A stretch of 64,000 bases of DNA from contig JALHNJ010000002.1 in the NCBI GenBank assembly GCA_022843585.1, positions 310,001-374,000 of the forward strand, written 5' to 3'. The DNA comes from Chitinophagaceae bacterium (lineage in GTDB: Bacteria; Bacteroidota; Bacteroidia; Chitinophagales; Chitinophagaceae). Both the position numbers and the translations under genes were made by a program. Of this stretch, positions 15,465 through 29,022 are shown piece after piece; the stretch's first letter is position 1, and every line of letters starts with the position of its first letter. Under the pieces are notes generated by a model, which did not search any database, was not told where the DNA came from, and worked only from the letters and a program-made list of their open reading frames with translations.

Positions 15465-16193
15465 ATGAAACTTTCGGAATTGATAATTTTTGAGAATGAT
15501 GATTTTGTTGCGTTGAATAAACCATCTGGCTTATTATCTATTCCCGACAGAGAAGGAGAAGAAGTTTCATTGAAGAGTTTATTACAGGAAAAATATTCGC
15601 AAATTTTTACGGTACACCGGCTTGACAGAGATACAAGTGGCTTAATTGTCTTTGCAAAGAATGAAGCCACTCACAAACATCTTTCACAACAATTTGAGGG
15701 ACGATTAACAAAGAAAATTTATGCAGGGCTGGTTCTTGGTTCGCCGGCGGAAACAAAAGGAAGTATAAATCTGCCACTCGCAGAAAATATGGTGCAGCGG
15801 GGTGTTATGATCGTAAACCGTCGTGGCAAGGAATCATTAACTGATTATGAGGTGATGGAAGATTTTGGATTGTATTCTTGGATGCGGTTCCAAATTCATA
15901 CGGGACGAACACACCAGATACGGGTGCATATGAAAGAGATCGATCATCCTATAGTTTGTGATGAAGTGTATGGCGATGGTAAACCAGTTTTACTTTCTTC
16001 TTTGAAAAAGAAAAAATTTAAATTGGGTAAAGATGTGTTGGAAGAACGACCGTTGATGTCACGACTTGCTTTACATGCTTATCAACTAACTTTTACTACA
16101 CTACAAGGTGATCAAAAAGAATTGACTGCTGAATTCCCGAAAGATCTAAAAGCAACAATACAGCAATTGCAGAAATGGGTGAAGAAGAAATAG
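15465..16193 (+). CDS. RluA-family pseudouridine synthase without S4 domain
   Basis: A 242-residue enzyme with the RluA signature HRLDRDTSGLIVFAK (catalytic Asp54) and the HTGRTHQIRVHM motif near residue 145. It lacks an N-terminal S4 domain, as in the RluA/TruC group that modifies rRNA or tRNA. It follows the RluB-type gene on the same strand and may be co-expressed. The target uridine is unknown. Confidence 0.92.
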   Translation: MKLSELIIFENDDFVALNKPSGLLSIPDREGEEVSLKSLLQEKYSQIFTVHRLDRDTSGLIVFAKNEATHKHLSQQFEGRLTKKIYAGLVLGSPAETKGSINLPLAENMVQRGVMIVNRRGKESLTDYEVMEDFGLYSWMRFQIHTGRTHQIRVHMKEIDHPIVCDEVYGDGKPVLLSSLKKKKFKLGKDVLEERPLMSRLALHAYQLTFTTLQGDQKELTAEFPKDLKATIQQLQKWVKKK

Positions 16194-16204
16194 TTTTTCA
16201 AGCA

Positions 16205-16226
16205 AACCTGCCTGTCGGCAGACAGG
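16205..16226. repeat. Copy of the CCTGCCTG palindromic repeat
   Basis: These 22 bases are identical to 13365-13386 in the rlmN-Spy gap. The element sits in the 83-bp gap between convergent genes and may also help end transcription. Confidence 0.75.
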
Positions 16227-16276
16227 GCCACAAAGGAGCAACGACGTAAAGAAATACAGAAGGCAATTATGGTTTT

Positions 16277-17449
16277 CTAACTCTTATCTAACGCCTGCAA
16301 AATATCATTCAGTATATCTTCAGGATGTTCTAATCCAACGGAAATGCGGATCAAACCCGGTGTAATTCCAACTGCATTTCTTTCTTCTTCAGTTAATTTA
16401 GAATGGGTGGTAGATGCAGGATGAGAAGCAATGCTCCTGCTATCTCCAAGATTATTTGTCATGGATAACATTTGCAACGCATTCAAAAATTTTCTTCCGC
16501 TTTCAACACCTCCTTTCAATTCAAAAGTTACAATTCCCCCGCCATTGCTCATTTGCTTTTTTGCAATTGCATATTGCGGATGCGTTTCCAGGAAAGGATA
16601 TTTTACACTATTTATTTGCGGATGCGATTGCAATGAGGTGGCTAATTTTAATGCTGTATCTGCATGCCTATCCATCCGAACAAATAATGTTTCCAAACTT
16701 TTCGTCAATACCCATGCATTAAAAGGGCTCATGGAGGGACCGGTATTACGAATGAACAAAAACAATTGTTTAATTAATTCTTTTCTGCCAACTACTACTC
16801 CACCTAATACTCTTCCTTGTCCGTCAATAAATTTTGTTGCGGAATGTAAAACCAGATCAGCACCGTATTGAATAGGTTGTTGTACCGCTGGAGTAGCAAA
16901 GCAATTATCAACTACCAATAAAATATTATGCTGCTTGCAAATCTTTGAAACAACTTCAATATCAATAATATCTAAACCCGGATTGCTTGGTGTTTCAACA
17001 TATAGTATTTTAGTGTTGGGCTTTATCAACCCTTCAATACTATCAGGTTTATTCATATCAAAGTAAGAAGATTCAATCCCCCACTTTGGTAAATATTTGG
17101 TGAGTATCGTATGTGTAGAACCAAATACTGCTGATGCAGAAATGATATGATCTCCTTTGCTTAAGAATGTCATAAAGGTTCCGAAAATTGCAGCCATGCC
17201 TGTTGCAGTTGCAATGCCATCTTCTGCTCCTTCTAATGCGGCAATTTTATTTATGAATTCATCGACTGTTGGGTTAGAAAACCTTGAATAAATATTTACA
17301 TCCAATTCATCATCAGCAAATGCATCTGCCATGTCTTCTGCAGATTCGTAGGTGAAACTACTGGTAAGAAATAAAGGAGTTGAATGTTCTTTTTGGCTTG
17401 TCTTTTCTGTTTGAAGACGAATTGCTTTTGTTTCGGGCCGCTGTGACAT
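16277..17449 (-). CDS. metZ: O-succinylhomoserine sulfhydrylase / Cys-Met metabolism PLP enzyme
   Basis: A 390-residue PLP-dependent enzyme of the Cys/Met metabolism family. The PLP-binding lysine is Lys206 in HSATKFIDGQGRVLGG, the form typical of MetZ, which makes homocysteine directly from O-succinylhomoserine and sulfide. Other marks are YSRFSNPTVDEF near residue 54 and the cofactor-ring segment ETPSNPGLDI (152-161). Cystathionine gamma-synthase is the main alternative. Placed at the edge of the sulfate-assimilation island it would consume the sulfide produced there. Its promoter lacks the palindrome found upstream of the cys genes. Confidence 0.88.
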   Translation of the reverse strand: MSQRPETKAIRLQTEKTSQKEHSTPLFLTSSFTYESAEDMADAFADDELDVNIYSRFSNPTVDEFINKIAALEGAEDGIATATGMAAIFGTFMTFLSKGDHIISASAVFGSTHTILTKYLPKWGIESSYFDMNKPDSIEGLIKPNTKILYVETPSNPGLDIIDIEVVSKICKQHNILLVVDNCFATPAVQQPIQYGADLVLHSATKFIDGQGRVLGGVVVGRKELIKQLFLFIRNTGPSMSPFNAWVLTKSLETLFVRMDRHADTALKLATSLQSHPQINSVKYPFLETHPQYAIAKKQMSNGGGIVTFELKGGVESGRKFLNALQMLSMTNNLGDSRSIASHPASTTHSKLTEEERNAVGITPGLIRISVGLEHPEDILNDILQALDKS

Positions 17450-17470
17450 TATTTTAAGTTAATTGGACAG

Positions 17471-17478
17471 CAAAGATA
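17471..17478 (-). promoter_or_regulatory. -7 box of metZ
   Basis: On the minus strand this reads TATCTTTG, matching TAnnTTTG, 21 nt before the metZ ATG. No well-spaced -33 element is clear. Confidence 0.55.
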
Positions 17479-17594
17479 CAATGCCGCCACTATGAAACTG
17501 TAAAGAAAATCAATGACTAACATACGTTTGCGTAACTTCACGACAAAAAAAAATTGAAATAAATCACATTAAAAATATTCTCTCCTTAATTATT

Positions 17595-18365
17595 TTATTG
17601 CTTCTTCCTTAGATCAAGATTGTGAAAATAGAATAGCCTTACTATATGATTATTCCTGTACCGGTTACCTACCGCTAATTGTTGAAACAGGTTCATATAC
17701 CCAAATTGCAAATTATCATGTGTATTGATATGGTAGTTAAACCCAAGGAAAAAACGATTTTGATCAAAATAATTATTGATGATCTGCTTTCCAAAATTTA
17801 CATGTACTTCATCATTTACCACAAAAGAAAGTGTGTTAGGTTGAAATCTTTTTTTACTCAATGGAAACTGAGCAAAAAAATTATATCTGATTTTAAAATT
17901 GAAATTATATCCCTCTGCCAGCTCATCATCATTTAAAATTTTTTGGCGAAACCGCTGTTCAAACCGAAACCATTGCATCATCCGGAGTTTGGGAAATTTT
18001 GTGTGCCATTGTAGCTGTTGCCAGGGCCGATGTTCAGGTTGCGAAATATTTTTATGATTTTCCGCAGGGAAATGATTGATATAGGCATATCCCGCAGTAA
18101 GCTTTGCCTCATCAGTTAAATAATACGTCAACCCCAACCGAACAATTGCCTGCGAAAAATTAGTAAAGAAATCTTCCTTCGTTCTTAAATGTGCATCAGC
18201 CCATATTCCCCATTTGCTACTGAACCGGGTCTGGTTAAAATATCCCGCCCATACCTGGTTTATATTGGTAATTTGTTTTATTTGTGCTGAAGCAGTGGAA
18301 GGCAAGAGTATAATTATCGATATACTAATCAAAAATTTTCTTATAGAAAAAAAACAAGTAAACAT
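17595..18365 (-). CDS. DUF2490-type outer-membrane beta-barrel protein
   Basis: A 256-residue protein with a signal peptide (hydrophobic 12-28, ending TASAQ). The mature part is made of alternating aromatic strands such as WGIWADAHLRTKEDF and AIVRLGLTYYLTDEAKLTAGYAY, with a long central RFEQRFRQK strand, as in DUF2490 proteins thought to be small beta-barrels. No enzymatic motif. It starts 6 bp after a 92-residue carboxypeptidase-like domain gene and is probably co-transcribed with it. Function unknown. Confidence 0.75.
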   Translation of the reverse strand: MFTCFFSIRKFLISISIIILLPSTASAQIKQITNINQVWAGYFNQTRFSSKWGIWADAHLRTKEDFFTNFSQAIVRLGLTYYLTDEAKLTAGYAYINHFPAENHKNISQPEHRPWQQLQWHTKFPKLRMMQWFRFEQRFRQKILNDDELAEGYNFNFKIRYNFFAQFPLSKKRFQPNTLSFVVNDEVHVNFGKQIINNYFDQNRFFLGFNYHINTHDNLQFGYMNLFQQLAVGNRYRNNHIVRLFYFHNLDLRKKQ

Positions 18366-18371
18366 GCAGTA

Positions 18372-18650
18372 TTATCTTTCTTTTAAAATAATCAATATTT
18401 GTTGTGAGTCTGAAGTAACTACTAACCGGACGGTTTCAAAATGAATATGCTTTACAATTAACGTAACAGGGAATTTCTGCCAGGAGAGTATTTTAAACTC
18501 TCCTTCAGTAGTTGTTAACGATTCTTCTTTGGATTTTTCAATATATACCTGGGTAAAACTTACTGGCTTATTATCCTTCTTATTGATCACTACTCCTTGT
18601 ATAATGAGCGGAAGCATTACTTCGTTTATTTCCGGATAGGATAAAATCAT
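18372..18650 (-). CDS. Orphan carboxypeptidase-regulatory-like domain
   Basis: A 92-residue protein that is nearly all one beta-sandwich domain: IQGVVINKKDNKPVSFTQVYI-type opening (about 17-38), then TTTEGEFKILSW. This is the domain normally found at the N-terminus of SusC/TonB-dependent receptors or surface proteins. It has no signal peptide, plug or barrel. A start at Met12 (18617) would cover just the domain. Either a small stand-alone gene coupled to the DUF2490 gene 6 bp downstream, or a remnant of a larger receptor. Reading frame is intact. Confidence 0.55.
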   Translation of the reverse strand: MILSYPEINEVMLPLIIQGVVINKKDNKPVSFTQVYIEKSKEESLTTTEGEFKILSWQKFPVTLIVKHIHFETVRLVVTSDSQQILIILKER

Positions 18651-18678
18651 ACACTACTATTTACAGATCAAAAAAATG

Positions 18679-18749
18679 ACACCCTGGTCGGATTCGAACC
18701 GACGTATAAGGATTTGCAGCCCTCCACCTGTCCTCTCGGTCACAGGGTT
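18679..18749 (-). tRNA. tRNA-Cys (GCA)
   Basis: A 71-nt cloverleaf on the minus strand. The T-arm is GTCGG-TTCGAAT-CCGAC, the D-stem ACC/GGT, and the anticodon loop CTGCAAA with anticodon GCA. The discriminator base is U73, the identity base of tRNA-Cys. CCA is not encoded. The acceptor stem pairs for six bases, but pair 1-72 reads A-G, an apparent mismatch. It lies on the same strand as the sulfur-assimilation genes and downstream of the TonB-dependent receptor. Confidence 0.93.
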
Positions 18750-18763
18750 GATTTTTTAAAATA

Positions 18764-18787
18764 GGCATCCCGGGGAACCGGGACGCC
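18764..18787 (-). terminator. Hairpin between the receptor gene and tRNA-Cys
   Basis: GGCATCCCGG and CCGGGACGCC pair around GGAA with one G-U when read on the minus strand, followed by TATTTTAAAAAAT. It probably ends the receptor transcript. It leaves only 14 bp before the tRNA 5' end, so the tRNA needs read-through or a promoter overlapping this hairpin. Confidence 0.7.
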
Positions 18788-18851
18788 GTTACTCTAACGA
18801 TTGCTTGTTATATGAAAAAAGCTATGTTAAGTGGTTAGTATCAATATCATT

Positions 18852-21419
18852 TTAGAAAGAATAGCGCAATGTTATTCCGTATGTTCTTTGATCACCTAAT
18901 ACACCAGCATAATGCCCGGCGTTTCCACCTGCTGGCAATAATTGTTCGTAATAATCTTTATCTAATAAATTTCGCCCACACACAAATGCGGAAAGACCAT
19001 TAGCTGCTCTAAAGCCAAATCTTCCATTCAACAATGCATAACCATCAATATTTAAAAAGGCTGAGGGAGACGGGCTAGAAGAAAAAGAAGAACGATAATA
19101 ACCATCTGCAGCGATAAACAGCTTACCAGCTTTACCTAAAAAAGCAGCGGGGGTAGTAAACTCTCCTCCTAACGATCCAGCCCATTTGGATATGCCGGGT
19201 AAATCACCACCTGAAACATCTTTGAAAGCTTTTTGTACTCCATTTTCCGTCAACCCTGTTTCTTCAAGAGGTAATGGTGCATTAGTAAATTTTACATACT
19301 TGCCATCCGTATAAGCTAAGGCTCCATAAAATGAGAAATGATTATTAAGTTTAAAGTTCGCATCCACTTCAAGACCTTTTACTCTTACTTCTTCGGCATT
19401 GGCTATGTAGCCCCGGTTAACCCCTAACTCAGCAGATTGAACATTGGTTTGGTAATTCTTAATATCAGAATTATGATAAACTATATTAAGAGTAAAGTTA
19501 TCCGTAGGATTTGTTTTAATACCTACTTCAAAATGGGCCAGGTCTTCAGGTTTAATAACAGCCAGATCAAGAGCAGGCTGACCATTTACAGTTGGCAAAC
19601 CAGCCACATTAACACCTACGGGTTTAAAACTGGTAGAGTATGTTGCAAAAGCATTAAGGCGTTTATTAACCCTGTATGCTACGGTGAGCTGATAGGTAAG
19701 ATTATTTTCATCAGCATCAGCCACATAAGCCTGGCTTGTATAAACGCCATTTTTAAACCCTTGCAAAGTTGTTTTTTGGGCGGTTGTTCCATTGTAAGTG
19801 GCTGTATCTAAACCACCTCTTGCAACCCGGTTGTAGCTAACATCTTTTTTGTCATAATTAAAACGGATACCCGGTAATATGTGTAAGCCTTCTGTAACTT
19901 CCCAATCCACATTAGCAAATGCGGCTGCACTTTGTGATTTAATTGAAGCTTTTGTATAAATTCCAAATCCTTCAAAAAGACCTGGCGTTTGCCAAAGGTT
20001 ACTGGTAGAGCTTTGAGAAAAACGCCATTGAGCATTACCTGATTCTTCCGTACCATCTATTTTTACTTCCTGGTCTATATAGAAAAGACCAACAACACCC
20101 GTCAACTTAGAAGAAAATTCACCTGCATATCGAATTTCTTGTGACCAGTTTTTATGTTTAGCAGGGTTTTGTGATTTGGCCAAAGCTTGTAACCCTGTGA
20201 AATCTCTGTCATTGGACGGACGCCAATTCCAGTAGCGCCAAGCTGTAGTTGCAGTAAGTGTACCTTGTCCAATTTTAGTATCGAAATTTAAAGATGCGCC
20301 TCCTAAATCATTTCCAGAATTCCATGGTGTATCATGATCAATAACTCTATCGAATGCATTCTGACTGGGTAATTGATAATTTAAGTCGGCGATGATGGCG
20401 CCAAATTGACGATAAGCCGGACGCTTTGTTACAACGACACCTGCAACCACCTGCGCATAACCATCAGGTTTTTGGCGGGAATCATCTACTGATAACATGA
20501 GTGATGTATTATCTGATGGTTTGTATAACAACTGACCCCGAAAGCCTATGTTGTTAATATCATTAACAGACTTTGTTGTTCTTACATTTTCAACCAGACC
20601 ATTACGTTGCGTACCGGAAAAAGAAAGCCTTGCAGCAAATTTTTTACTTAATGTACCAGTTATAGAACTTTTCGCTTGTACATATCCGTAATTACCATAA
20701 CTCACTTCAAAATTTGCACCGGGTTTAAAACTTGGTTTTCGGGTGGTGATATTAATTGCACCTGAAGTAGTATTCTTACCAAATAATGTTCCCTGCGGGC
20801 CACGCAACACTTCAATACGTTCAATGTCTATAAAATCTAAAGTGGCAGCAGCAGGACGGGCATAGTAAACACCATCTACATAAAAACCAACACCGGGATC
20901 AAGGCCATCATTAGTAAGACCGAATGGAGAACCTAAACCACGGATATTGATCCCCGTATTACGAGGATTAGAAGTATATAATTGCAGCGAAGGAACAAAT
21001 TCCTTCACCCGGTTAACATTGAACGCACCGGCATCTTCTACCTGAGCACCACTAATAACTGAAATGGGAATGGGAACATCCTGCAACACTTCTCTGCGCC
21101 TTCTCGAAGTAATGACAACAGTATCTCTTTGAAAAAGCGATTCAAGCTGAACTATTATATTATTGTTATTCAAATTTCTTACAATAAACTCACGTTGGCC
21201 AAACCCTGCTGAAGAAACTATTAATGTAAAGGGAAAAGGTTGATTAACGATGAAGGAAAAACGACCTATAGAGTCAGTAACCGTGCCTGTAGATGTATTT
21301 TTAACTTTTACACTGGCAAACGGAACAGGTTCATTATTATCATTGACAACACGGCCGGTAAACTGAGCTGAAACAATCAGCGGCAATAAAAATGTGACAA
21401 AAAGAGTAAAATGCTTCAT
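18852..21419 (-). CDS. TonB-dependent receptor, putative sulfur-regulated
   Basis: An 855-residue outer-membrane receptor: signal peptide (ends IVSAQ, about 18), carboxypeptidase-like domain (about 20-105, FTGRVVNDNNEPVPFASV), TonB plug (about 110-230, VPIPISVISGAQVEDAGAF, then IEVLRGPQGTLFGKNTTSGAINITTRKP), and a barrel ending GITLRYSF. The plug resembles classic siderophore/cobalamin-type receptors rather than SusC, and no SusD is adjacent. Two copies of the sulfur-island palindrome lie upstream, so import of a sulfur compound (sulfonate, sulfate ester or similar) is a reasonable inference; iron or another ligand is not excluded. Confidence 0.93.
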   Translation of the reverse strand: MKHFTLFVTFLLPLIVSAQFTGRVVNDNNEPVPFASVKVKNTSTGTVTDSIGRFSFIVNQPFPFTLIVSSAGFGQREFIVRNLNNNNIIVQLESLFQRDTVVITSRRRREVLQDVPIPISVISGAQVEDAGAFNVNRVKEFVPSLQLYTSNPRNTGINIRGLGSPFGLTNDGLDPGVGFYVDGVYYARPAAATLDFIDIERIEVLRGPQGTLFGKNTTSGAINITTRKPSFKPGANFEVSYGNYGYVQAKSSITGTLSKKFAARLSFSGTQRNGLVENVRTTKSVNDINNIGFRGQLLYKPSDNTSLMLSVDDSRQKPDGYAQVVAGVVVTKRPAYRQFGAIIADLNYQLPSQNAFDRVIDHDTPWNSGNDLGGASLNFDTKIGQGTLTATTAWRYWNWRPSNDRDFTGLQALAKSQNPAKHKNWSQEIRYAGEFSSKLTGVVGLFYIDQEVKIDGTEESGNAQWRFSQSSTSNLWQTPGLFEGFGIYTKASIKSQSAAAFANVDWEVTEGLHILPGIRFNYDKKDVSYNRVARGGLDTATYNGTTAQKTTLQGFKNGVYTSQAYVADADENNLTYQLTVAYRVNKRLNAFATYSTSFKPVGVNVAGLPTVNGQPALDLAVIKPEDLAHFEVGIKTNPTDNFTLNIVYHNSDIKNYQTNVQSAELGVNRGYIANAEEVRVKGLEVDANFKLNNHFSFYGALAYTDGKYVKFTNAPLPLEETGLTENGVQKAFKDVSGGDLPGISKWAGSLGGEFTTPAAFLGKAGKLFIAADGYYRSSFSSSPSPSAFLNIDGYALLNGRFGFRAANGLSAFVCGRNLLDKDYYEQLLPAGGNAGHYAGVLGDQRTYGITLRYSF

Positions 21420-21450
21420 GTTCTTGGTTTGATTTAGATTAAATAATTAT

Positions 21451-21473
21451 TAGTCTATTATTTTAGTAGACTA
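21451..21473. promoter_or_regulatory. Sulfur-island palindrome, site A
   Basis: TAGTCTA-N9-TAGACTA, a perfect match to both half-sites, 32 bp upstream of the TonB-dependent receptor start. Flanking AATTATT/AAATAATT extends the dyad. Candidate operator for the Rrf2 protein encoded at 26458-26865. Confidence 0.7.
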
Positions 21474-21601
21474 AATAATTAAAAAAAGCAACATTTCACA
21501 GGCAACAACATCGTTGAGTAGTATCAAAAAAACCTGGCAGTATATTTAATTTCTGACTGAGCATTATAAATACCTATTAGGCAAAAATAAGTGTGGTTTA
21601 T

Positions 21602-21624
21602 TACTCTACCAAATTTATAGACTA
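21602..21624. promoter_or_regulatory. Sulfur-island palindrome, site E
   Basis: TACTCTA-N9-TAGACTA: one mismatch in the left half-site. It is the second site in the 215-bp gap before the receptor gene and lies just after the TauE-type gene stop. Confidence 0.55.
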
Positions 21625-21634
21625 ATAATTAAAA

Positions 21635-22666
21635 CTATATTGCTTTAATAATTATACGGAGACTCCATATGATTACCATTAATCCTACACATATAAGCAT
21701 TGCTCGCAAGGGCAACTTTCCTGCAAGTTTGGCTGCTATTGGGGCAGCAATTGCTCCTCCTATCATTAAACCCGCAATTATTTGCCAATGTGTAATGCCA
21801 ATGAACATAAAAAATGACATAGCACTTGCAAACGTTACAAAAAACTCACTCAAACTTACACTGCCAATAACATACTGGGGGCTTCTCCCTTTTGCAATTA
21901 GAGTACTTGTTACTAAAGGACCCCAACCGCCACCACCAAAACTATCCAGAAAACCTCCTGCACCGGCCAACCAACCTGCCCGTTTTACTTTTTTTATCTT
22001 TTTGCCTTTCTTATATGCCTGGTACAAAATCCGCACACCCAGTATCAAACAATAAACTCCTAATACCGGTTTTATAAAACCTGCATATTTTTCTCCGGCC
22101 CATACCAAGGCACCAGCACCGGCAATTGCTCCCAGCACTCCGGGTATCACTAATACTTTGAAAAGCTTTTTATTTACGTTACCGAATTTATAATGACTAT
22201 AACCACTGGCCGCACTGCTAAAAATTTCAGCGGTATGTACGCTGCCGCTTATTGCTGCGGGACTAACTCCCATACTCATTAATAAACTTGTACTGGTAAC
22301 ACCATAGCCCATTCCAACCGCACCATCAACCAATTGTGCGATAAATCCTGCTACAATAAAAAGATAAAAAGAAATGTCAATATTTGACTGAACTGATTGA
22401 ACAAGCGAAGCAAGGCTGGCATAACCAACATATTCCAAAACAAAAAAACCAATAATCATTAATGCAAAAAGAACTAATGAAACAGTTGCAATCCGCTTCC
22501 ATTTTCTTTCATTACGAATATTGCCATGAATCTCTTCAGGTAAACCTATATTTTCAGTTTCACTGGCAGTATCCACAATTACTTCAGCATCAGCAATCGG
22601 ATTCTCCGTTGACAATGCTTTATTAATTACCGAGAGCCCATTTAATTCTTTACCTGGATAAATCAT
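21635..22666 (-). CDS. TauE/SafE-family sulfite/sulfonate transporter
   Basis: A 343-residue membrane protein of the TauE/SafE (formerly DUF81) family. After an unusual hydrophilic N-terminal region (about 1-60) come about eight hydrophobic segments in two related halves, with the glycine-rich AGFIAQLVDGAVGMGYG (first half) and GGFLDSFGGGGWGPLVTS (second half) motifs. Family members move sulfite, sulfoacetate or other sulfur anions. The start is 5 bp after the cysN stop, so it belongs to the cysDN operon. Either sulfate/sulfonate uptake or sulfite export would suit; direction cannot be read from sequence. Confidence 0.88.
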   Translation of the reverse strand: MIYPGKELNGLSVINKALSTENPIADAEVIVDTASETENIGLPEEIHGNIRNERKWKRIATVSLVLFALMIIGFFVLEYVGYASLASLVQSVQSNIDISFYLFIVAGFIAQLVDGAVGMGYGVTSTSLLMSMGVSPAAISGSVHTAEIFSSAASGYSHYKFGNVNKKLFKVLVIPGVLGAIAGAGALVWAGEKYAGFIKPVLGVYCLILGVRILYQAYKKGKKIKKVKRAGWLAGAGGFLDSFGGGGWGPLVTSTLIAKGRSPQYVIGSVSLSEFFVTFASAMSFFMFIGITHWQIIAGLMIGGAIAAPIAAKLAGKLPLRAMLICVGLMVIIWSLRIIIKAI

Positions 22667-22671
22667 AGTAA

Positions 22672-23913
22672 TTATTGTATCAATACTGCAGCAACGGTAG
22701 CATTACTTGTTTCATCAATCAAAATGGCATTACCATTTACATTTAATTTTTGGAATGAATCATATACAATTGGAGAAGCCGTCTTAATGGTAGCTTTTAC
22801 TACTTCATTCAGTTTTACATTTCCCTCTATGGGTTGTTGTTGCAAACTGTTTACGTCTAGTTTATAATCAATTTGTTTCACTACTGCTCTTACCAAGCGA
22901 CTATTGTGTTGCAGGTAATATTTATTTCCCGGCACCAGCGGCTTATCGTCTAACCAGCAAAGCAATACTTCCAGTTCATTACTCACCTGTGGTTGATTAT
23001 CAATTTTAGCTATCGCATCGCCCCTGCTTATATCAATATCATCTGCTAGTTGAACTACTGCACTTTGCGGAGCGAATACTACATCAACTTCCTCCCCACC
23101 TACTTCTAATTTGCTGATTGTCGTCTCAATTCCAGTTGGCAATACAGTTACCTTATCTCCCTTTTTATAAATACCACTAATTACTTTACCTGCGTAGCCA
23201 CGGTAATCATGTAAGTCATCAGTTTGCGGACGAATAACTAACTGCACCTGGAAACGGGCATCCGTTAAATTAATATCATTATCAATTTCTACTTCTTCCA
23301 GCAATTCAAGTAACGGCTTACCAGTGTACCAATCAATCGCTGCTGATCGATCAACGATATTATCTCCATTCAATGCGCTGATCGGAATATAGGTCACATC
23401 ATTCAGCCCTAATTGTTTGGCTACTCCTGCATAATCAATTACAATGTTATTATACACATCATTCGAATACTCCACCAGATCCATTTTATTAATGGCTACC
23501 ACTACATGTGGAATTTTCAATAAGGATGCAATAATAGAATGACGACGGGTTTGTTCCACTACGCCTTGTCTGGCATCAACCAGTATAATAATAAGATTGG
23601 CATTTGATGCTCCCGTAATCATATTCCTGGTGTACTGCACATGTCCCGGCGCATCAGCAATAATGAATTTTCTCTTTGGCGTTGTGAAATATCTATATGC
23701 AACATCAATTGTAATACCTTGTTCCCTCTCGGCTCTTAATCCATCGGTCAACAAAGCAAGATCAACAGAACCATCCGTCCTGTTTTTGGTTGATTTTTCC
23801 AATGCCTCTAACTGATCAATCAAAATATTTTTGCTGTCATATAATAAACGACCGATCAATGTGCTTTTTCCATCATCAACACTACCTGCAGTTATAAATC
23901 TTAGTAAATCCAT
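22672..23913 (-). CDS. cysN: Sulfate adenylyltransferase subunit 1 (GTPase)
   Basis: A 413-residue EF-Tu-like GTPase subunit that drives APS synthesis by CysD. G1 is GSVDDGKS (10-17), followed by the DAPGHVQYTRNM G3 motif and NKMD G4 motif, then two beta-barrel domains. It stops without the C-terminal APS-kinase (CysC) domain carried by CysNC fusions. It is downstream of cysD with a 127-bp gap that contains a long inverted repeat (23926-24037). Confidence 0.96.
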   Translation of the reverse strand: MDLLRFITAGSVDDGKSTLIGRLLYDSKNILIDQLEALEKSTKNRTDGSVDLALLTDGLRAEREQGITIDVAYRYFTTPKRKFIIADAPGHVQYTRNMITGASNANLIIILVDARQGVVEQTRRHSIIASLLKIPHVVVAINKMDLVEYSNDVYNNIVIDYAGVAKQLGLNDVTYIPISALNGDNIVDRSAAIDWYTGKPLLELLEEVEIDNDINLTDARFQVQLVIRPQTDDLHDYRGYAGKVISGIYKKGDKVTVLPTGIETTISKLEVGGEEVDVVFAPQSAVVQLADDIDISRGDAIAKIDNQPQVSNELEVLLCWLDDKPLVPGNKYYLQHNSRLVRAVVKQIDYKLDVNSLQQQPIEGNVKLNEVVKATIKTASPIVYDSFQKLNVNGNAILIDETSNATVAAVLIQ

Positions 23914-23925
23914 TATGTTATTTTT

Positions 23926-24037
23926 AGTCCGAAAGTCCGGTAGACCGGAAGTCGGAAAGTAATATTCGAATACCTAATTATGCTTTACAAATGCAGAATT
24001 TCCTTTCGGACATTCTGACTTACCGTCTTTCCGACTT
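23926..24037. repeat. Long imperfect inverted repeat in the cysD-cysN gap
   Basis: Arms 23926-23959 and 24003-24037 are related inverted copies of a purine-rich sequence built from units like AGTCCGAAAG and GTCGGAAAG, with a 43-nt spacer. Similar elements occur at 34186-34305 and 35974-36060. It fills almost the entire intergenic space and would form a long hairpin in the cysD-cysN transcript. Confidence 0.7.
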
Positions 24038-24040
24038 CTC

Positions 24041-24949
24041 TTAAAAATATCCATTCTTCTTCCTGTCTTCCATCGCTGCTTCAGTAACCCGATCATCAAT
24101 TCTTGTTTCTCCTCGTTCACTTATTTTAGTAGAAATTATTTCGTTAATCACTTCATCCAATGTAGAAGCGGTTGATTCCACAGCGGCTGTACAAGTCATA
24201 TCCCCGACGGTTCGATATCGAACTTTCTTTGTAGTGATCACATCTTCCGCTCCCGGTTGCACATATTCACTCATAGCCACTAATTGCCCTTCATGCTCTA
24301 TCACTTCTCTTTCATGCGAAAAATAAATAGATGGCAAGCCAATATTTTCTTTACGTATATAATTCCAAATATCAAGTTCTGTCCAGTTACTGATGGGGAA
24401 CACTCTTACATTTTCACCCTTATGAATTCGCCCATTATAAATAGTCCATAATTCCGGACGTTGCAATTTGGGATTCCATTGTCCAAATTCATCCCGCACC
24501 GAAAAAATTCTTTCTTTGGCCCTTGCTTTTTCTTCGTCTCTTCTTGCACCACCAATGCAGCAATCAAATTTGAATTCTTCAATGGTATCCAGCAACGTAT
24601 AAGTTTGTAACCAATTCCGGCTCGGAAATTTTCCTTTAGGTTCGGTCAGGCTTCTTTGCTTAATGGTGTCTACCACTTTTCTTACCGTCAAGGTTGCCTT
24701 TACTTCGTTTGCTAATTGATCCCGAAATGCCAATGCCTCAGGAAAATTATGTCCGGTATCAATATGTACTAAGGGAAAAGGAATTTTTCCCGGTGCAAAA
24801 GCTTTTTTTGCCAGATGAACCAGGGTAATGGAATCTTTACCACCACTAAACAATAAAGCAGGACGTTCAAACTGTGCCGCAACTTCCCGGAATATATAAA
24901 TACTCTCTGCTTCCAGCTCCTCCAGATAGTTTAAATGATAGTTACTCAT
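24041..24949 (-). CDS. cysD: Sulfate adenylyltransferase subunit 2
   Basis: A 302-residue ATP-PPi-type enzyme that adenylates sulfate to APS together with CysN. The PP-loop is SGGKDS (35-40); the conserved CCIGGARRDEEKARAKERIFS and FPISNWTELDIW segments and the C-terminal RKKNGYF are typical. Full length. It has its own palindrome 16 bp upstream of the start, so it may be transcribed separately from cysH. Confidence 0.96.
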   Translation of the reverse strand: MSNYHLNYLEELEAESIYIFREVAAQFERPALLFSGGKDSITLVHLAKKAFAPGKIPFPLVHIDTGHNFPEALAFRDQLANEVKATLTVRKVVDTIKQRSLTEPKGKFPSRNWLQTYTLLDTIEEFKFDCCIGGARRDEEKARAKERIFSVRDEFGQWNPKLQRPELWTIYNGRIHKGENVRVFPISNWTELDIWNYIRKENIGLPSIYFSHEREVIEHEGQLVAMSEYVQPGAEDVITTKKVRYRTVGDMTCTAAVESTASTLDEVINEIISTKISERGETRIDDRVTEAAMEDRKKNGYF

Positions 24950-24965
24950 AATAATATTTTATTAT

Positions 24966-24988
24966 TAGTCTACTTTTACAGTAGACTG
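24966..24988. promoter_or_regulatory. Sulfur-island palindrome, site B
   Basis: TAGTCTA-N9-TAGACTG, with extra symmetric C and G inside (TAGTCTAC...GTAGACT). It sits in the 54-bp gap between the cysH stop and the cysD start. Confidence 0.7.
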
Positions 24989-25003
24989 GTTGCTCAAAAA
25001 AAT

Positions 25004-25714
25004 TTAACCTGTTACTTTCGTCACAGTTTCATGCAAACCACATTCCTTTTGTGAGGTCTCCCACCACCAGCGGCCTGCTCTGACATCTTCCTCCGGTTCA
25101 ATGGCTCTGGTACATGGTGCACATCCAATACTTATAAAACCTTTATCGTGTAAATGATTGTACGGCACATTATGTTGTTTGATGTACTCCATCATATCAT
25201 AATAACTCCATCGTATAAGTGGATTAAATTTATATAACTGTTTTTCATCCGACCATTCTATCATTGGCATTTGTTCTCTGTTGCCCGATTGCTCAGCTCT
25301 TAATCCTGTTATCCAAACCTTGGCTCCTTTTAATGCCCGGTTCAACGGTTTTACTTTTCGGATAAAACAACACTCTTTCCGGTTGTCTACCGACTCATAA
25401 AAGCTATTTATTCCCTTCACATTTACAAACTGTTCTACATCCGTTGCTTCGGGAAAAAAAACTTCGATGCCTTTCTTATAGCGGGCAATTGTTCTGTCGA
25501 GTAATTCATATGTTTCGTTAAATAACCTACCTGTATCTATTGTAAAAATTTTAACCGGAAGGTTATTCTTAAAAATAATATCTGTGAGTATCTGGTCTTC
25601 TTGCCCTAGTGAAGAAGAAAATACAACTCCTTCTGAAAACAACCTGGTAACTAACCCAATAGCTTCCGGAACAGTGCTCCCTTCAATTGCTTGTATTTGC
25701 TCAGGACTCAGCAT
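25004..25714 (-). CDS. cysH: Adenylyl-sulfate (APS) reductase, 4Fe-4S type
   Basis: A 236-residue reductase converting APS or PAPS to sulfite. The N-terminal part has the SSSLGQEDQ substrate loop and DTGRLFNETYEL. Cysteine pairs ECC (about 135) and CAPC (about 209) are the [4Fe-4S] ligands that mark APS-using assimilatory reductases, and a C-terminal ECGLH carries the catalytic cysteine. This fits the lack of an APS kinase in the window. Its ATG overlaps the peroxiredoxin stop by one base (TAATG), so the two are translationally coupled. Confidence 0.93.
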   Translation of the reverse strand: MLSPEQIQAIEGSTVPEAIGLVTRLFSEGVVFSSSLGQEDQILTDIIFKNNLPVKIFTIDTGRLFNETYELLDRTIARYKKGIEVFFPEATDVEQFVNVKGINSFYESVDNRKECCFIRKVKPLNRALKGAKVWITGLRAEQSGNREQMPMIEWSDEKQLYKFNPLIRWSYYDMMEYIKQHNVPYNHLHDKGFISIGCAPCTRAIEPEEDVRAGRWWWETSQKECGLHETVTKVTG

Positions 25715-26349
25715 TATAAATTTGGCTGTGGTGTATAACGCAAGTATGGTTTTACAACTTTAACTCCTTTTGGAAATTTCTTGATGGCATCTTCTGTAGA
25801 AACTGCCGGTACTACAATTACATCTTCACCCGATTTCCAATCGGCGGGTGTTGCTACGCTATATCCAGCTGTTAATTGTAAAGAGTCAACAACTCGTAAC
25901 ACTTCATAAAAATTTCTCCCTGTTGATGCGGGATAAATGATCATCAGCTTCACCAACTTATCGGGCCCTATCACAAAAAGCGAACGAACCGTTGCAGTAG
26001 CAGAAGCATTTGGATGGATCATGTCATATAGAGTTGCCACATTCCTATCTGCATCAGCAATTATTGGAAATCCTACTGTGCAATTCTGTGTTTCATTAAT
26101 GTCTTTTCTCCAGTCAAAATGTTTGTCCAACGGATCAATACTTACCGCCAATACTTTTACATTCCGTTTTGCAAATTCTTCCTGTAATAGAGCAGTTTTA
26201 CCAAGTTCCGTAGTACAAACAGGGGTGAAGTCGGCAGGATGTGAAAATAAAATAGCCCATCCATCGCCTATAAAATCATAGAAATTAATTTCTCCTTCCG
26301 TTGTTTGAGCCGTAAAATTTGGCGCAGTATCCCCAAGTCGTAAAGACAT
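25714..26349 (-). CDS. 1-Cys peroxiredoxin (Prx6-type)
   Basis: A 211-residue thiol peroxidase with the active-site motif HPADFTPVCTTE (peroxidatic Cys45) and the long C-terminal extension of the Prx6/1-Cys group (PLDKHFDWRKDI, then YPASTGRNFYEVLRVVDSLQLT). No other conserved resolving cysteine is visible. It removes peroxides with an external reductant. As first gene of the cysH operon, overlapping cysH by one base, it may protect the oxygen-sensitive Fe-S reductase or handle sulfur oxidants; that link is inference. Confidence 0.93.
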   Translation of the reverse strand: MSLRLGDTAPNFTAQTTEGEINFYDFIGDGWAILFSHPADFTPVCTTELGKTALLQEEFAKRNVKVLAVSIDPLDKHFDWRKDINETQNCTVGFPIIADADRNVATLYDMIHPNASATATVRSLFVIGPDKLVKLMIIYPASTGRNFYEVLRVVDSLQLTAGYSVATPADWKSGEDVIVVPAVSTEDAIKKFPKGVKVVKPYLRYTPQPNL

Positions 26350-26371
26350 AGTATATAATTTTAGTAGACTG
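26349..26371. promoter_or_regulatory. Sulfur-island palindrome, site C
   Basis: TAGTATA-N9-TAGACTG: the right half matches sites B and A closely; the left half has one mismatch. Its first base overlaps the peroxiredoxin start codon, so a bound protein would block the very start of the gene. Confidence 0.55.
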
Positions 26372-26391
26372 CAAAAATAGGGGTAAAAAAA

Positions 26392-26414
26392 TAGCCTACC
26401 AAGACGATAGACTA
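26392..26414. promoter_or_regulatory. Sulfur-island palindrome, site D
   Basis: TAGCCTA-N9-TAGACTA, one mismatch in the left half. It lies 20 bp beyond site C in the 108-bp gap between the Rrf2 gene and the peroxiredoxin-cysH operon. Confidence 0.6.
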
Positions 26415-26457
26415 TTTTATGATGTTTTACGCAAACGACTGTTCGCTTACTTATGAA

Positions 26458-26865
26458 TCAGACGATTAGGTCTTTAAGCGTTCTGTTTTCAACAATATTC
26501 AGAGTAGCATCTCTTACTTCCAGCATCATATCATGCAAGCCACAATGTTTTTCATCGCAGTTCTTACATCGCTCATAAAAGTAGAGGCTTACGCAGGGCA
26601 GCATGGCTATCGGTCCATTAATAAGCCTGATCACTGTTGCCATTTTTACTTTTTCAGGGCTTTTATTAAGAAAATATCCTCCCCCCTTTCCTTTTTTGCT
26701 ATCAAGGATACCGGCTTTCTTTAATTCCAGCAAAATATTTTCCAAAAACTTCAACGGAATTTTTTTCTTCTTAGCAATTTCAGAAATAAGTACAGGCCCC
26801 TGGTTATATTTAATAGCCAAGTAAGCAAGTGCCTTAAATGCGTATTGAGATTTTTTTGAAAGCAT
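26458..26865 (-). CDS. Rrf2-family transcriptional regulator
   Basis: A 135-residue winged-helix regulator. The Rrf2 start MLSKKSQYAFKALAYLA, the recognition-helix region ISEIAKKKKIPLKFLENIL and the GKGGGYFL wing are present. Four cysteines and a histidine (Cys91, Cys100, Cys103, Cys108, His111) lie where IscR/NsrR-type proteins bind an Fe-S cluster, although the spacing differs from IscR. Rrf2 proteins include CymR, the cysteine-metabolism repressor of Bacillus. Position in the cys island, and five shared palindromes nearby, make it the likely local sulfur regulator. It may sense an Fe-S cluster, a thiol or a cysteine precursor. Confidence 0.9.
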   Translation of the reverse strand: MLSKKSQYAFKALAYLAIKYNQGPVLISEIAKKKKIPLKFLENILLELKKAGILDSKKGKGGGYFLNKSPEKVKMATVIRLINGPIAMLPCVSLYFYERCKNCDEKHCGLHDMMLEVRDATLNIVENRTLKDLIV

Positions 26866-26879
26866 AGTTGAAGCCTAAA

Positions 26880-27272
26880 TTAGAAAATATCTAAATTATA
26901 ATTGATTGGTGAGTTCTTTTTCAGCATGGCTGATACGCCACAATATTTTTCCAGCGACAAATCAATTGCCTTTTTTACTTTATCCTCGTTTACTTTTGAC
27001 GTTTTTATTTTATACGTAATTAGTATTTGCTTAAACACTTTAGGATTCTCTTCAGTTTGCTCAGCCTCTGTTTCAATAGAGAAATCAGAAAAAGCTACTT
27101 TCATTTTTGCAAGTATATCCACCACATCTATACCAGAGCAGCCAGCAAGACCTGCTAACAACAATGCTTTGGGGCCAAACCCGTTCTCCCGGCTCCCATC
27201 CAGTTTTATGGTACTATGCTCATGCAGACTTTCAAATTCATGATCTTTTTTCCAGGTAGTAATTGTTTTCAT
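26880..27272 (-). CDS. OsmC/Ohr-family protein
   Basis: A 130-residue OsmC-like protein with the two family cysteines Cys45 (AGCSGIDVVDIL) and Cys111 (KYCGVSAML). The family comprises thiol-dependent peroxidases; the YhfA-like subgroup, which this resembles in length, is poorly defined. It lies 14 bp upstream of the Rrf2 gene and 1 bp after the CDF transporter, in one minus-strand run, consistent with a link to thiol/sulfur stress. Confidence 0.88.
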   Translation of the reverse strand: MKTITTWKKDHEFESLHEHSTIKLDGSRENGFGPKALLLAGLAGCSGIDVVDILAKMKVAFSDFSIETEAEQTEENPKVFKQILITYKIKTSKVNEDKVKKAIDLSLEKYCGVSAMLKKNSPINYNLDIF

Positions 27273-27273
27273 A

Positions 27274-28260
27274 TTATACTAGTTCATGTTTTTTATTCTG
27301 TGATATATTTTCCAATGTCCAGTCGATCCGATGCTCAAAATTATTCTTTCTCTCGGTGCAATTACTTTTTCCGCAAATTCGGCAAGAGAAAGGTAAACAA
27401 CCGTCGGAATGAACGAATAATTCAAGCGACTCGCCAAATTCCTTCCTGATTAATACAGCTAATACATCTATCTCCTTGTGACCTTCATGAATGTTAAGAT
27501 ACCATGGTACTGTAAGGTGGCAATCCACATGCAATACATTCCCATATTTAATTACCCGAAGGTTATGTAAATCAACCCAATTCTCCTTACGGTTTGCATT
27601 TAATAAAGTTACCATTCTTGTAAGCAACTTTGTATCTGCTTCATCCATAATACCAGCAATAGAATGTCTCAAAATTTTATAGCCAGTGTACATTATAAAA
27701 ATGGCGAAAAGAATTGCAATTAAACTATCAATCCATTTGTACCCGGTATAATAAAGCAGAATAAGGCCGATTATAATACCAACCGTTGACCATGTATCAC
27801 TTTGCAAATGCTTACCACTTGCCGTTAATGCTAATGATCCATTCATCTTTCCTATACGAAGACAAAAAAAACCCATTATAAAATTTACAATTGCTGTTGC
27901 AGCAACCAGCCAAATTCCATAATCAATTTTTTGAAGTTCAACAGGATTGATAAGATTCTGTAAAGCTTTATATAAAATAATAGCCCCGGCACTTCCGATC
28001 AATGTGCCTTCAATTGCTGCGGAAAGAAACTCGGCTTTGCCATGTCCATAAGGATGGTCCATATCCCGTGGCTTGGCAGCTACGAATAAACTAAATAAAC
28101 CAATAAACCCTGCGGCTACATTTACAATGCTCTCTAATGCATCGGTAAGAATGGAAACTGAATACGTTGAATAGTAAGCAACGAATTTTACTACCAGCAA
28201 TAGTACAGAAACTACAGCTACCCATTTTTGAACAGTAAGATTTTGCTGTGCTTTACCCAA
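27274..28260 (-). CDS. Cation diffusion facilitator (CDF) metal transporter
   Basis: A 328-residue CDF protein, probably six membrane segments over the first 200 residues, exporting divalent metal (Zn, Fe, Co, Mn type) in exchange for protons. The HPYGHGKAEF motif near residue 72 and the conserved DALESIVN segment near residue 37 are visible. A C-terminal cytoplasmic domain follows and ends with a cysteine-rich tail (CLPFSCRICGKSNC, about 291-304). The tail might bind metal. It abuts the OsmC gene (1 bp) and the upstream lipoprotein (3 bp). Confidence 0.9.
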   Translation of the reverse strand: MGKAQQNLTVQKWVAVVSVLLLVVKFVAYYSTYSVSILTDALESIVNVAAGFIGLFSLFVAAKPRDMDHPYGHGKAEFLSAAIEGTLIGSAGAIILYKALQNLINPVELQKIDYGIWLVAATAIVNFIMGFFCLRIGKMNGSLALTASGKHLQSDTWSTVGIIIGLILLYYTGYKWIDSLIAILFAIFIMYTGYKILRHSIAGIMDEADTKLLTRMVTLLNANRKENWVDLHNLRVIKYGNVLHVDCHLTVPWYLNIHEGHKEIDVLAVLIRKEFGESLELFVHSDGCLPFSCRICGKSNCTERKNNFEHRIDWTLENISQNKKHELV

Positions 28261-28263
28261 AAG

Positions 28264-29022
28264 TTAATCTCCCATGTTTTCTTTTGCATATTTTACCCAT
28301 TCCTTACGGGCAAAGATTAAAAATGCCGGTGGTGCGTTTGAAAATTGATACTCACTTTCATACTTTCCCATTGTTCGTTGCATTTCTGCTAGTTCATCTT
28401 TTAATTGCGTAGTTCCTTCAAGATTAGCATTATCCTCTGTAATATTAAATGTCATACCCTCTGCAAATGCAATCCACCTTATACCATTAAGCATATAGTT
28501 TTTCCCATTCTCTCGTAATACAAGTGTCAAAGCAGAAGGTGAAACATCACTACGGCAAGCCTTTGTATACTGAAACTTAATTTCAGCATACCCGTTATTA
28601 TCCAAATCCGTAATAGTAGTGCCGGGAATAAAATCACAAAGCAAGTCAAAAGAGCAGGATCGCTGATCGTCGGTAGATGTTCTAATAGCTCTGTATTTAC
28701 CTTCTTTCAATAAATAGTGTGTTGTATATACAAATCCCGACTCAGCTTCTTCATCAAATTCTTTTGGTTGCACATCTTTTTTTACTTCATGAGATAACAC
28801 AAAAATATTCTCTCCCAAACTATCTGTCCATTTCCATGCTTCATTTAAAGTTCCATATACGGTAATTTCAGCAGGCAACTCCTGCCTGCTGATTTTTTGG
28901 GGTTTCAAAAAATCAACGTTGGAAACAACACTTCCTGAACTTTTCCCAGCTTGGGAATCCTTATTAGTAGAAGAGTTGCAACTGAAAAACACAATGGTTA
29001 ATACGAATAAATAAACTTTCAT
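28264..29022 (-). CDS. Lipoprotein of unknown function
   Basis: A 252-residue lipoprotein (lipobox VFFSC, Cys15). After a Ser-rich linker there is a mostly beta domain with the conserved-looking stretch GTTITDLDNNGYAEIKFQYTKACRSDVSPS, resembling an uncharacterised Bacteroidota family named from memory M949_RS01915. That label carries no proven function. It is 3 bp upstream of the CDF gene and probably co-transcribed. Confidence 0.7.
   Translation of the reverse strand: MKVYLFVLTIVFFSCNSSTNKDSQAGKSSGSVVSNVDFLKPQKISRQELPAEITVYGTLNEAWKWTDSLGENIFVLSHEVKKDVQPKEFDEEAESGFVYTTHYLLKEGKYRAIRTSTDDQRSCSFDLLCDFIPGTTITDLDNNGYAEIKFQYTKACRSDVSPSALTLVLRENGKNYMLNGIRWIAFAEGMTFNITEDNANLEGTTQLKDELAEMQRTMGKYESEYQFSNAPPAFLIFARKEWVKYAKENMGD

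Follow-up and report, generated by a model that had tools for sequence, protein, structure and literature searches.

Results

The window analysed here, a stretch of 64,000 nucleotides from the genome of a Chitinophagaceae bacterium, harbours a sulfate-assimilation locus in which the gene of an Rrf2-family regulator is accompanied by five copies of a 23-bp palindrome, and these copies most likely mark, judging by sequence, where the regulator encoded beside them would switch sulfur-assimilation genes. All genes of the locus lie on the minus strand, in the order Rrf2, sites D and C, peroxiredoxin, cysH, site B, cysD, cysN, TauE-type exporter, sites E and A, and TonB receptor. The regulator (26458..26865; Pfam Rrf2, 3.3e-34) comprises 135 amino acids with cysteines C91, C100, C103 and C108. 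It is followed by a peroxiredoxin with a 1-cysPrx_C domain (25714..26349; Pfam AhpC-TSA and 1-cysPrx_C), by cysH for an adenylylsulfate/phosphoadenylylsulfate (APS/PAPS) reductase (25004..25714; above the cutoffs of NCBIfam TIGR02055 and NF002537), by cysD (24041..24949; above the TIGR02039 cutoff) and cysN (22672..23913; above the TIGR02034 cutoff), which encode a subunit and the GTPase subunit of sulfate adenylyltransferase, by a TauE/SafE-type exporter (21635..22666; Pfam TauE, 7.4e-36) and by a TonB-dependent receptor (18852..21419; Pfam Plug and beta-barrel).

The initial annotation had described five sites of the form TAGTCTA-N9-TAGACTA, with right halves TAGACT(A/G), left halves at most one base apart and a spacing of nine, all of which was verified at every coordinate. 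Site A (21451..21473, 0 mismatches) and site E (21602..21624, 1 mismatch) lie 31 and 182 bp before the start of the TonB receptor, and site B (24966..24988, 1 mismatch) lies 16 bp before the cysD start codon. Site D (26392..26414, 1 mismatch) is placed 42 bp before the start codon of the peroxiredoxin, which site C (26349..26371, 2 mismatches) abuts with a one-base overlap. The coordinates confirm the annotated placement of these predicted operators before the TonB receptor, before cysD and between the Rrf2 gene and the peroxiredoxin-cysH operon; the statement that all of them are intergenic holds for A, E, B and D, but not for C. With a position weight matrix trained on 77 sites of the window's family, found by a 1-mismatch pattern, sites B and D score 21.6 and 22.0, values that 0 of 60 shuffles reach.

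A 3-mismatch search of the window alone gave 7 matches where 2.15 were expected, a number reached by 1 of 100 shuffles. Across the whole genome (4.49 Mb) the pattern occurs with at most two mismatches in six places, five of them in the 5-kb locus, while the reversed-pattern control occurs in 18, so that the clustering and not the count is the signal. At one mismatch or fewer, sites A, E, B and D are the sole places genome-wide (control 1). The sixth match (L006), located within a stop-to-stop reading frame, has poor palindromic symmetry. Since scanning the window's genome with three mismatches yielded 56 places versus 130 for the control, no further targets can be called in it.

Co-occurrence of the motif with the regulator was assessed across 147 family genomes. 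Of the 90 that encode an orthologue of the window's Rrf2 protein, 65 carry a site with at most one mismatch, versus 3 of the 57 without it (Fisher 5e-17); the site totals are 190 and 5, respectively. The reversed-pattern control gave totals of 78 and 30 and was not associated with the orthologue (45/90 versus 21/57, p 0.13). The orthologue threshold of E ≤ 1e-48 was set after the table had been inspected; at a looser threshold of 1e-30 the counts are 65/99 versus 3/48 (p 2e-12). The Fisher tests were run on related genomes, and the sole adjustment for kinship, one genome per genus, left a site in 46 of 63 with the orthologue versus 2 of 38 without. Sulfate assimilation itself could confound this association, and cysD was therefore taken as its marker. 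Among cysD-positive genomes, 57 of 77 with Rrf2 carry a site versus 2 of 15 without, and among cysD-negative genomes 8 of 13 versus 1 of 42. Given Rrf2, the presence of cysD has no effect on the site (57/77 versus 8/13, p 0.34). The motif tracks the regulator rather than the cys genes, and coincidence with cys genes alone is ruled out by the association within each of the two strata. The expected occurrence of the motif near the cys genes of Rrf2-bearing relatives was found without being universal: of the best 30 of 92 cysD matches, one being the window's own and two coming from genomes that lack the orthologue, 14 are preceded by a site at 300 bp or less (shuffle p<0.02), 11 of these sites scoring >10.

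Physical linkage of site and regulator gene was followed beyond the family in a class set of 295 genomes; with the window's own genome and those of family members included, 33 of these contain a site, and the protein has a match at E ≤ 1e-25 in 74. We examined the 29 best-scoring class loci besides that of the window, 26 of them outside the family, and 44 further family loci, regarding as a scoring site one whose score no more than 1 of 60 shuffles attained, a level at which about one false match per column is expected. Outside the family, 19 of 26 loci have such a site in the 300 bp on the 3' side of Rrf2 and 4 have one on the 5' side; for scores >10 these numbers are 13 and 2. In the 44 family loci, the 3' side holds a scoring site in 21 and the 5' side in 3 (11 and 0 for scores >10). 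Fuller counts, with the window included in the family, amount to 22/45 family and 20/29 class loci on the 3' side, and to 3/45 and 5/29 on the 5' side. In a genome with a second, more diverged Rrf2 copy (G116, L146, 4022-4668; 50% identity), two perfect sites lie directly 3' of that copy.

Gene order was compared in 20 class-set loci, picked largely for a site or a strong match, one of which (G014) belongs to the family. The order Rrf2, site, cysH-cysD-cysN recurs in five loci of other families (L361, L362, L364, L372, L373), the Rrf2 gene of L361 being located by protein-match coordinates and not labelled in the gene-order scan. Elsewhere the site beside Rrf2 precedes a DUF2490-TauE-sulfite reductase operon (L363), and sites precede a DUF2490 gene with a transporter of the sodium:sulfate/citrate type (L370), such a transporter by itself (L371), a porin accompanied by a binding protein and an ATP-binding cassette (ABC) permease (L365) and a peroxiredoxin (L367).

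The 77 distinct family sites converge on a continuous 23-bp palindrome, about TAGTCTAYNAAWTTNRTAGACTA or roughly TAGTCTA-Y-N-A-A-W-T-T-N-R-TAGACTA, in which the inner A and T positions of the spacer also carry information. The nine spacer bases are thus not random sequence, a description ruled out by the non-random spacers of the relatives' sites. A looser half-site, WASYCYAY, is obtained from 36 matrix-picked sites beside Rrf2 genes. Neighbours could be called for 73 distinct family sites, 69 of which are located 5' of a gene that points away from them, 3 inside an open reading frame (ORF) and 1 between convergent genes, so the motif, for which common occurrence outside promoters had been considered, is not common outside promoters in these relatives. 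The called start codon is no more than 50 bp away for 32 of the 69 upstream sites and more than 300 bp away for 4, distances that are approximate because ORF starts were called mechanically.

To what extent the motif reaches beyond the class was seen from a stricter pattern run over 84,980 genomes, which returned 107 stretches; the following figures derive from 80 of them. Bacteroidota account for 72, including Chitinophaga, Ferruginibacter, Terrimonas, Chryseobacterium, Kaistella, Flavobacterium, Lutibacter, Winogradskyella, Mucilaginibacter and others, and the remaining 8 comprise five Rhizobium, a Dongia, a Rickettsiales bin and a Beijerinckiaceae bin. Outside called ORFs lie 77 of the 80 sites. 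In each of the five Rhizobium records (L223, L239, L256, L280, L291) the strict 23-bp pattern is matched exactly; one of these sites has an OsmC gene as its neighbour and another a luciferase-type monooxygenase. We detected no relative of the window's Rrf2 in these five stretches of 8 kb each.

From 98 site-adjacent proteins, 8 under 70 amino acids were dropped and 90 were scanned with Pfam, the best 25 of 60 families being considered. CarboxypepD-like and TonB-receptor domains occur in 15, 13, 10 and 7 of them, and among the families listed we find AhpC-TSA (5), NIL (5), PhyH (4) and SrpI encapsulins (2), together with UvrD helicases (2) and sigma factors (2). In excerpts of PMC8049743, SrpI encapsulins are described as rising under sulfur starvation in Synechococcus. 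As a control, 90 proteins were drawn from 241 lying >1.5 kb from sites, with a length cut of 150 amino acids and the best 25 of 115 families; here the corresponding counts for these receptor domains are 5, 5, 6 and 3, and sulfite reductase is seen in 2 proteins. Within the family, sites are also located upstream of cysD, cysH, MetZ-type, PALP (CysK-like) and rhodanese-type genes as well as sulfite reductase. Counting only genomes whose sites were individually listed, 16 of 77 sites (24 other genomes) have cysD or sulfite reductase at a distance of 12 kb or less, where at most 0.7 would be expected. In four family genomes (L029, L108, L013, L144) genes of one cluster follow the site, the member in L029 being a fatty-acid hydroxylase, and an acetyltransferase-type gene lies across the site in two of the four. 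One might guess at a link between the hydroxylase cluster and sulfur-containing lipids.

The regulator itself belongs to the Rrf2 superfamily (Pfam 118.3 versus a cutoff of 30 bits; TIGR00738, rrf2_super, 118.8 versus 73.3), while it falls short of the equivalog cutoffs for IscR (TIGR02010, 79.8 versus 207.55 bits) and CymR (NF047409, 69.5 versus 195 bits) and below the curated cutoffs for RirA and NsrR. Thirteen solved sequences matched, best the BadM/Rrf2 regulator 4cic, followed by the putative regulator 3lwf, CymR (2y75) and then IscR; 3t8r also matched. Cysteines C91, C100, C103 and C108 are each invariant in 83/83 aligned orthologues, which suggests that they may hold an iron-sulfur (Fe-S) cluster. 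Three of them, C91, C103 and C108, presumably align with IscR cysteines, and 37 of 83 sequences have His at the position that we take for that of the cluster histidine in IscR, so that the three-Cys-plus-His set is not kept as a whole. For the Caulobacter IscR, the excerpted text of PMC11475020 gives Cys95, Cys105, Cys112 and His115 as cluster ligands. The same text names S40, Y41, E43, Q44 and R59 as IscR residues critical at a type-2 site, to which K39, F40 and E42 (83/83 each), N43 (56/83) and K58 (78/83) correspond in the orthologues.

Among the remaining features of the locus, relatives of the window's TonB receptor with 61-63% identity likewise stand behind such sites in three loci (L251, L255, L379). 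A tRNA gene (18679..18749, minus strand; Rfam) lies between the receptor and the next genes down to MetZ, which therefore may not share the receptor's transcript. Sulfite reductase (PF01077) has no match in the window's genome, though cysH, cysD and cysN are present; if it is truly missing, sulfite would be exported or used directly. SufB/D (PF01458) likewise has no match there, which is unexpected at a completeness score of 100% and may reflect a gap in the data or the search.

Discussion

In this study, we observed copies of a 23-bp palindrome at promoter positions that co-occur with, and are physically linked to, the gene of one Rrf2-family regulator. The proposal of the initial annotation, an Rrf2-controlled sulfur regulon, is supported by these data, given that the motif tracks the Rrf2 orthologue after stratification by cysD and adjoins its gene in other families. 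We therefore favour, with a probability of roughly 80%, a model in which the Rrf2 protein, as a dimeric regulator of the winged-helix type, would bind the palindrome and control sulfur assimilation and scavenging. From what is known of the family, the dimer would contact the palindrome with one subunit per half-site. Under its control would stand, in the window, sulfate activation and reduction, the TauE-type exporter, the peroxiredoxin and the outer-membrane TonB receptor, joined in relatives by transporters, sulfite reductase and, probably, genes for scavenging. Since 32 of the 69 upstream sites lie so close to the called start codon, we infer a repressor, which would act by occlusion near the transcription start and be released when sulfur or Fe-S supply runs short, though the protein may instead act as an activator. 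As the sensor one could imagine an Fe-S cluster on the four cysteines or, failing that, zinc, with a shortage of sulfur or clusters freeing the operators.

Several observations weigh against this model. No site at one mismatch or fewer is present in 25 of the 90 family genomes with the orthologue, some of which have weaker sites (L059, score 2.3) and in others of which none was found, and three genomes (G023, G050, G104) have a site while no orthologue was found; of these, G023 carries three sites, but in its congener G120 the orthologue lies 250 bases from a contig end. Two loci with the order Rrf2-cysHDN show a weak site only (L368 and L380, scores 4.1 and 6.8), and in six other loci of the class set (L366, L375, L376, L377, L378, L379) no site scoring >=15 lies directly 3' of Rrf2. 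With respect to the gene content, the enrichment of TonB-receptor domains beside sites, compared with proteins farther off, is only 1.7- to 3-fold, 61 of the 77 listed sites in relatives have neither cysD nor sulfite reductase within 12 kb, and some sites adjoin a helicase, peptidases, a fatty-acid hydroxylase or 3-deoxy-D-arabino-heptulosonate 7-phosphate (DAHP) synthase, which are not obviously sulfur genes.

Among known systems, IscR and CymR each share features with the regulator. The holo form of IscR (E. coli, Pseudomonas), a member of the same Rrf2 family, binds type-1 sites which are palindromes of 23-25 bp in the same register (TASYYGACTRWWW vs WASYCYAYNAAW), with the E. coli type-1 consensus as quoted in excerpts of PMC6599224 and PMC3899308. 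Without any shift, 9 of 12 half-site positions agree in 86-100% of half-sites, and positions 8 and 9 in 56% and 38%. The IscR operator ATASYYGACTRWWWYAGTCRRSTAT as such is not present, as position 6 agrees in 0% of half-sites, being G in each IscR half and T here (C in part of the looser set). The register agreement, tested after the resemblance had been noticed, is reached by 3 of 10,000 column shuffles (P 0.0003) and amounts to 0.79 per position versus 0.67 for the next best shift (-3). In contrast to IscR, the window's regulator has four invariant cysteines, no conserved histidine, sulfur genes among its predicted targets and a score below the IscR cutoff. CymR (Bacillus, Staphylococcus), the repressor of cysteine metabolism which the initial annotation had invoked as a precedent, is of the same family and controls cysteine and sulfur genes; the parallel holds for the predicted targets, with sites at cysH, cysD and transporter genes, but neither for the protein, which misses the CymR cutoff, nor for the operator and the cysteine cluster, which are more like those of IscR, Bacillus CymR as aligned lacking the cysteines of the C91-C108 stretch. 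CysB and Cbl of Proteobacteria act on the same cys pathway, but are activators of the unrelated LysR family. CymR is described in excerpts of PMC9338935 as binding DNA together with O-acetylserine thiol-lyase when cysteine is present. The Fe-S sensors NsrR, RsrR and RirA, again of the Rrf2 family, have cluster ligands partly in the same connector region according to excerpts of PMC9218516 and PMC9338935, but differ in ligand sets and effectors. The best reading of these likenesses is a dimeric, possibly Fe-S-binding Rrf2 repressor, CymR-like in its targets and IscR-like in its operator.

It is unlikely, on this evidence, that the protein is simply the local IscR, sensing Fe-S status for Fe-S assembly with the sulfur genes as secondary targets. 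An operator differing from the type-1 consensus of IscR chiefly in a single position of each half and the conserved cysteine cluster in the orthologues would agree with such a role, as would the Fe-S cluster that CysH of the APS-reductase type carries; the 79.8 bits against the curated IscR cutoff, the cluster histidine kept in 37/83 sequences only and the best 25 of 60 site-adjacent families, among which no Fe-S assembly gene is named, argue against it. We give a slightly smaller chance still to another transcription factor as the binder of the palindrome, with the Rrf2 gene as a mere neighbour or passenger of sulfate assimilation. Many genomes have Rrf2 and cys genes side by side, so that linkage alone cannot separate this from control by Rrf2, and the co-occurrence screen covered Rrf2 as the sole regulator. 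However, the motif follows Rrf2 in cysD-positive and cysD-negative genomes separately, it stands beside Rrf2 before differing operons (cysHDN, DUF2490-TauE-sulfite reductase, transporters, peroxiredoxin), and it has the register of an IscR type-1 site. Weaker Rrf2 paralogues do not account for the motif: of the first 60 genomes, 9 have low-scoring matches only, and 1 of these 9, counted by eye, has a site. The three paralogues in the window's own genome (27-30% identity) were rejected as binders, as they have no relatives of the cys locus around them except Rrf2 itself and no site scoring >0.4 in the surrounding 8.5-9.5 kb. They lie on contigs C6 and C10 of that genome (G000; L401-L403), and one has, by eye, a ScdA/RIC-type repair protein as neighbour, which would suggest nitric-oxide sensors.

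That the palindrome acts as an RNA hairpin, in a leader or attenuator, and not as a DNA operator is very improbable. Its arms can pair over up to 8 positions and many sites are close to start codons, but the sole Rfam match in 16000-29000 is the tRNA at 18679-18749, and the arms of 34 Rrf2-adjacent sites pair at 6.35 of 8 positions versus 6.08 for independently drawn half-sites (P 0.086), with perfect stems in 4 of the 34. Single sites are moreover common to divergent genes in several loci, e.g. L122. We rejected the hairpin on the Rfam scan and the arm-pairing comparison.

Conclusions

Among the literature matches listed, from a search with most subscription journals outside its scope, we found no description of the motif or the regulator and recognised no regulator of sulfur assimilation in Bacteroidota; the excerpts of two Bacteroidota papers (PMC12596196, PMC10434189) name no such regulator, and a published Rrf2-family network, as excerpted (PMC9218516), names large uncharacterised clusters. 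It is possible, though at present a tentative extension, that a four-cysteine Fe-S Rrf2 protein serves as a widespread master switch of sulfur acquisition in Bacteroidota, sensing cluster or cysteine-sulfur status and controlling, through an operator that differs from the IscR site mainly in a single position of each half, sulfate assimilation together with a large, lineage-specific set of outer-membrane receptor and sulfur-storage genes, SrpI-type encapsulins included. If the regulon is real, one protein and one operator would come with a testable gene list across the window's family and several other families of the class, and an IscR-like operator and cysteine cluster would have been turned from iron-sulfur assembly to sulfur supply. 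It would also provide a handle on TonB/SusC receptors of unknown substrate, whose substrates may be sulfur compounds.

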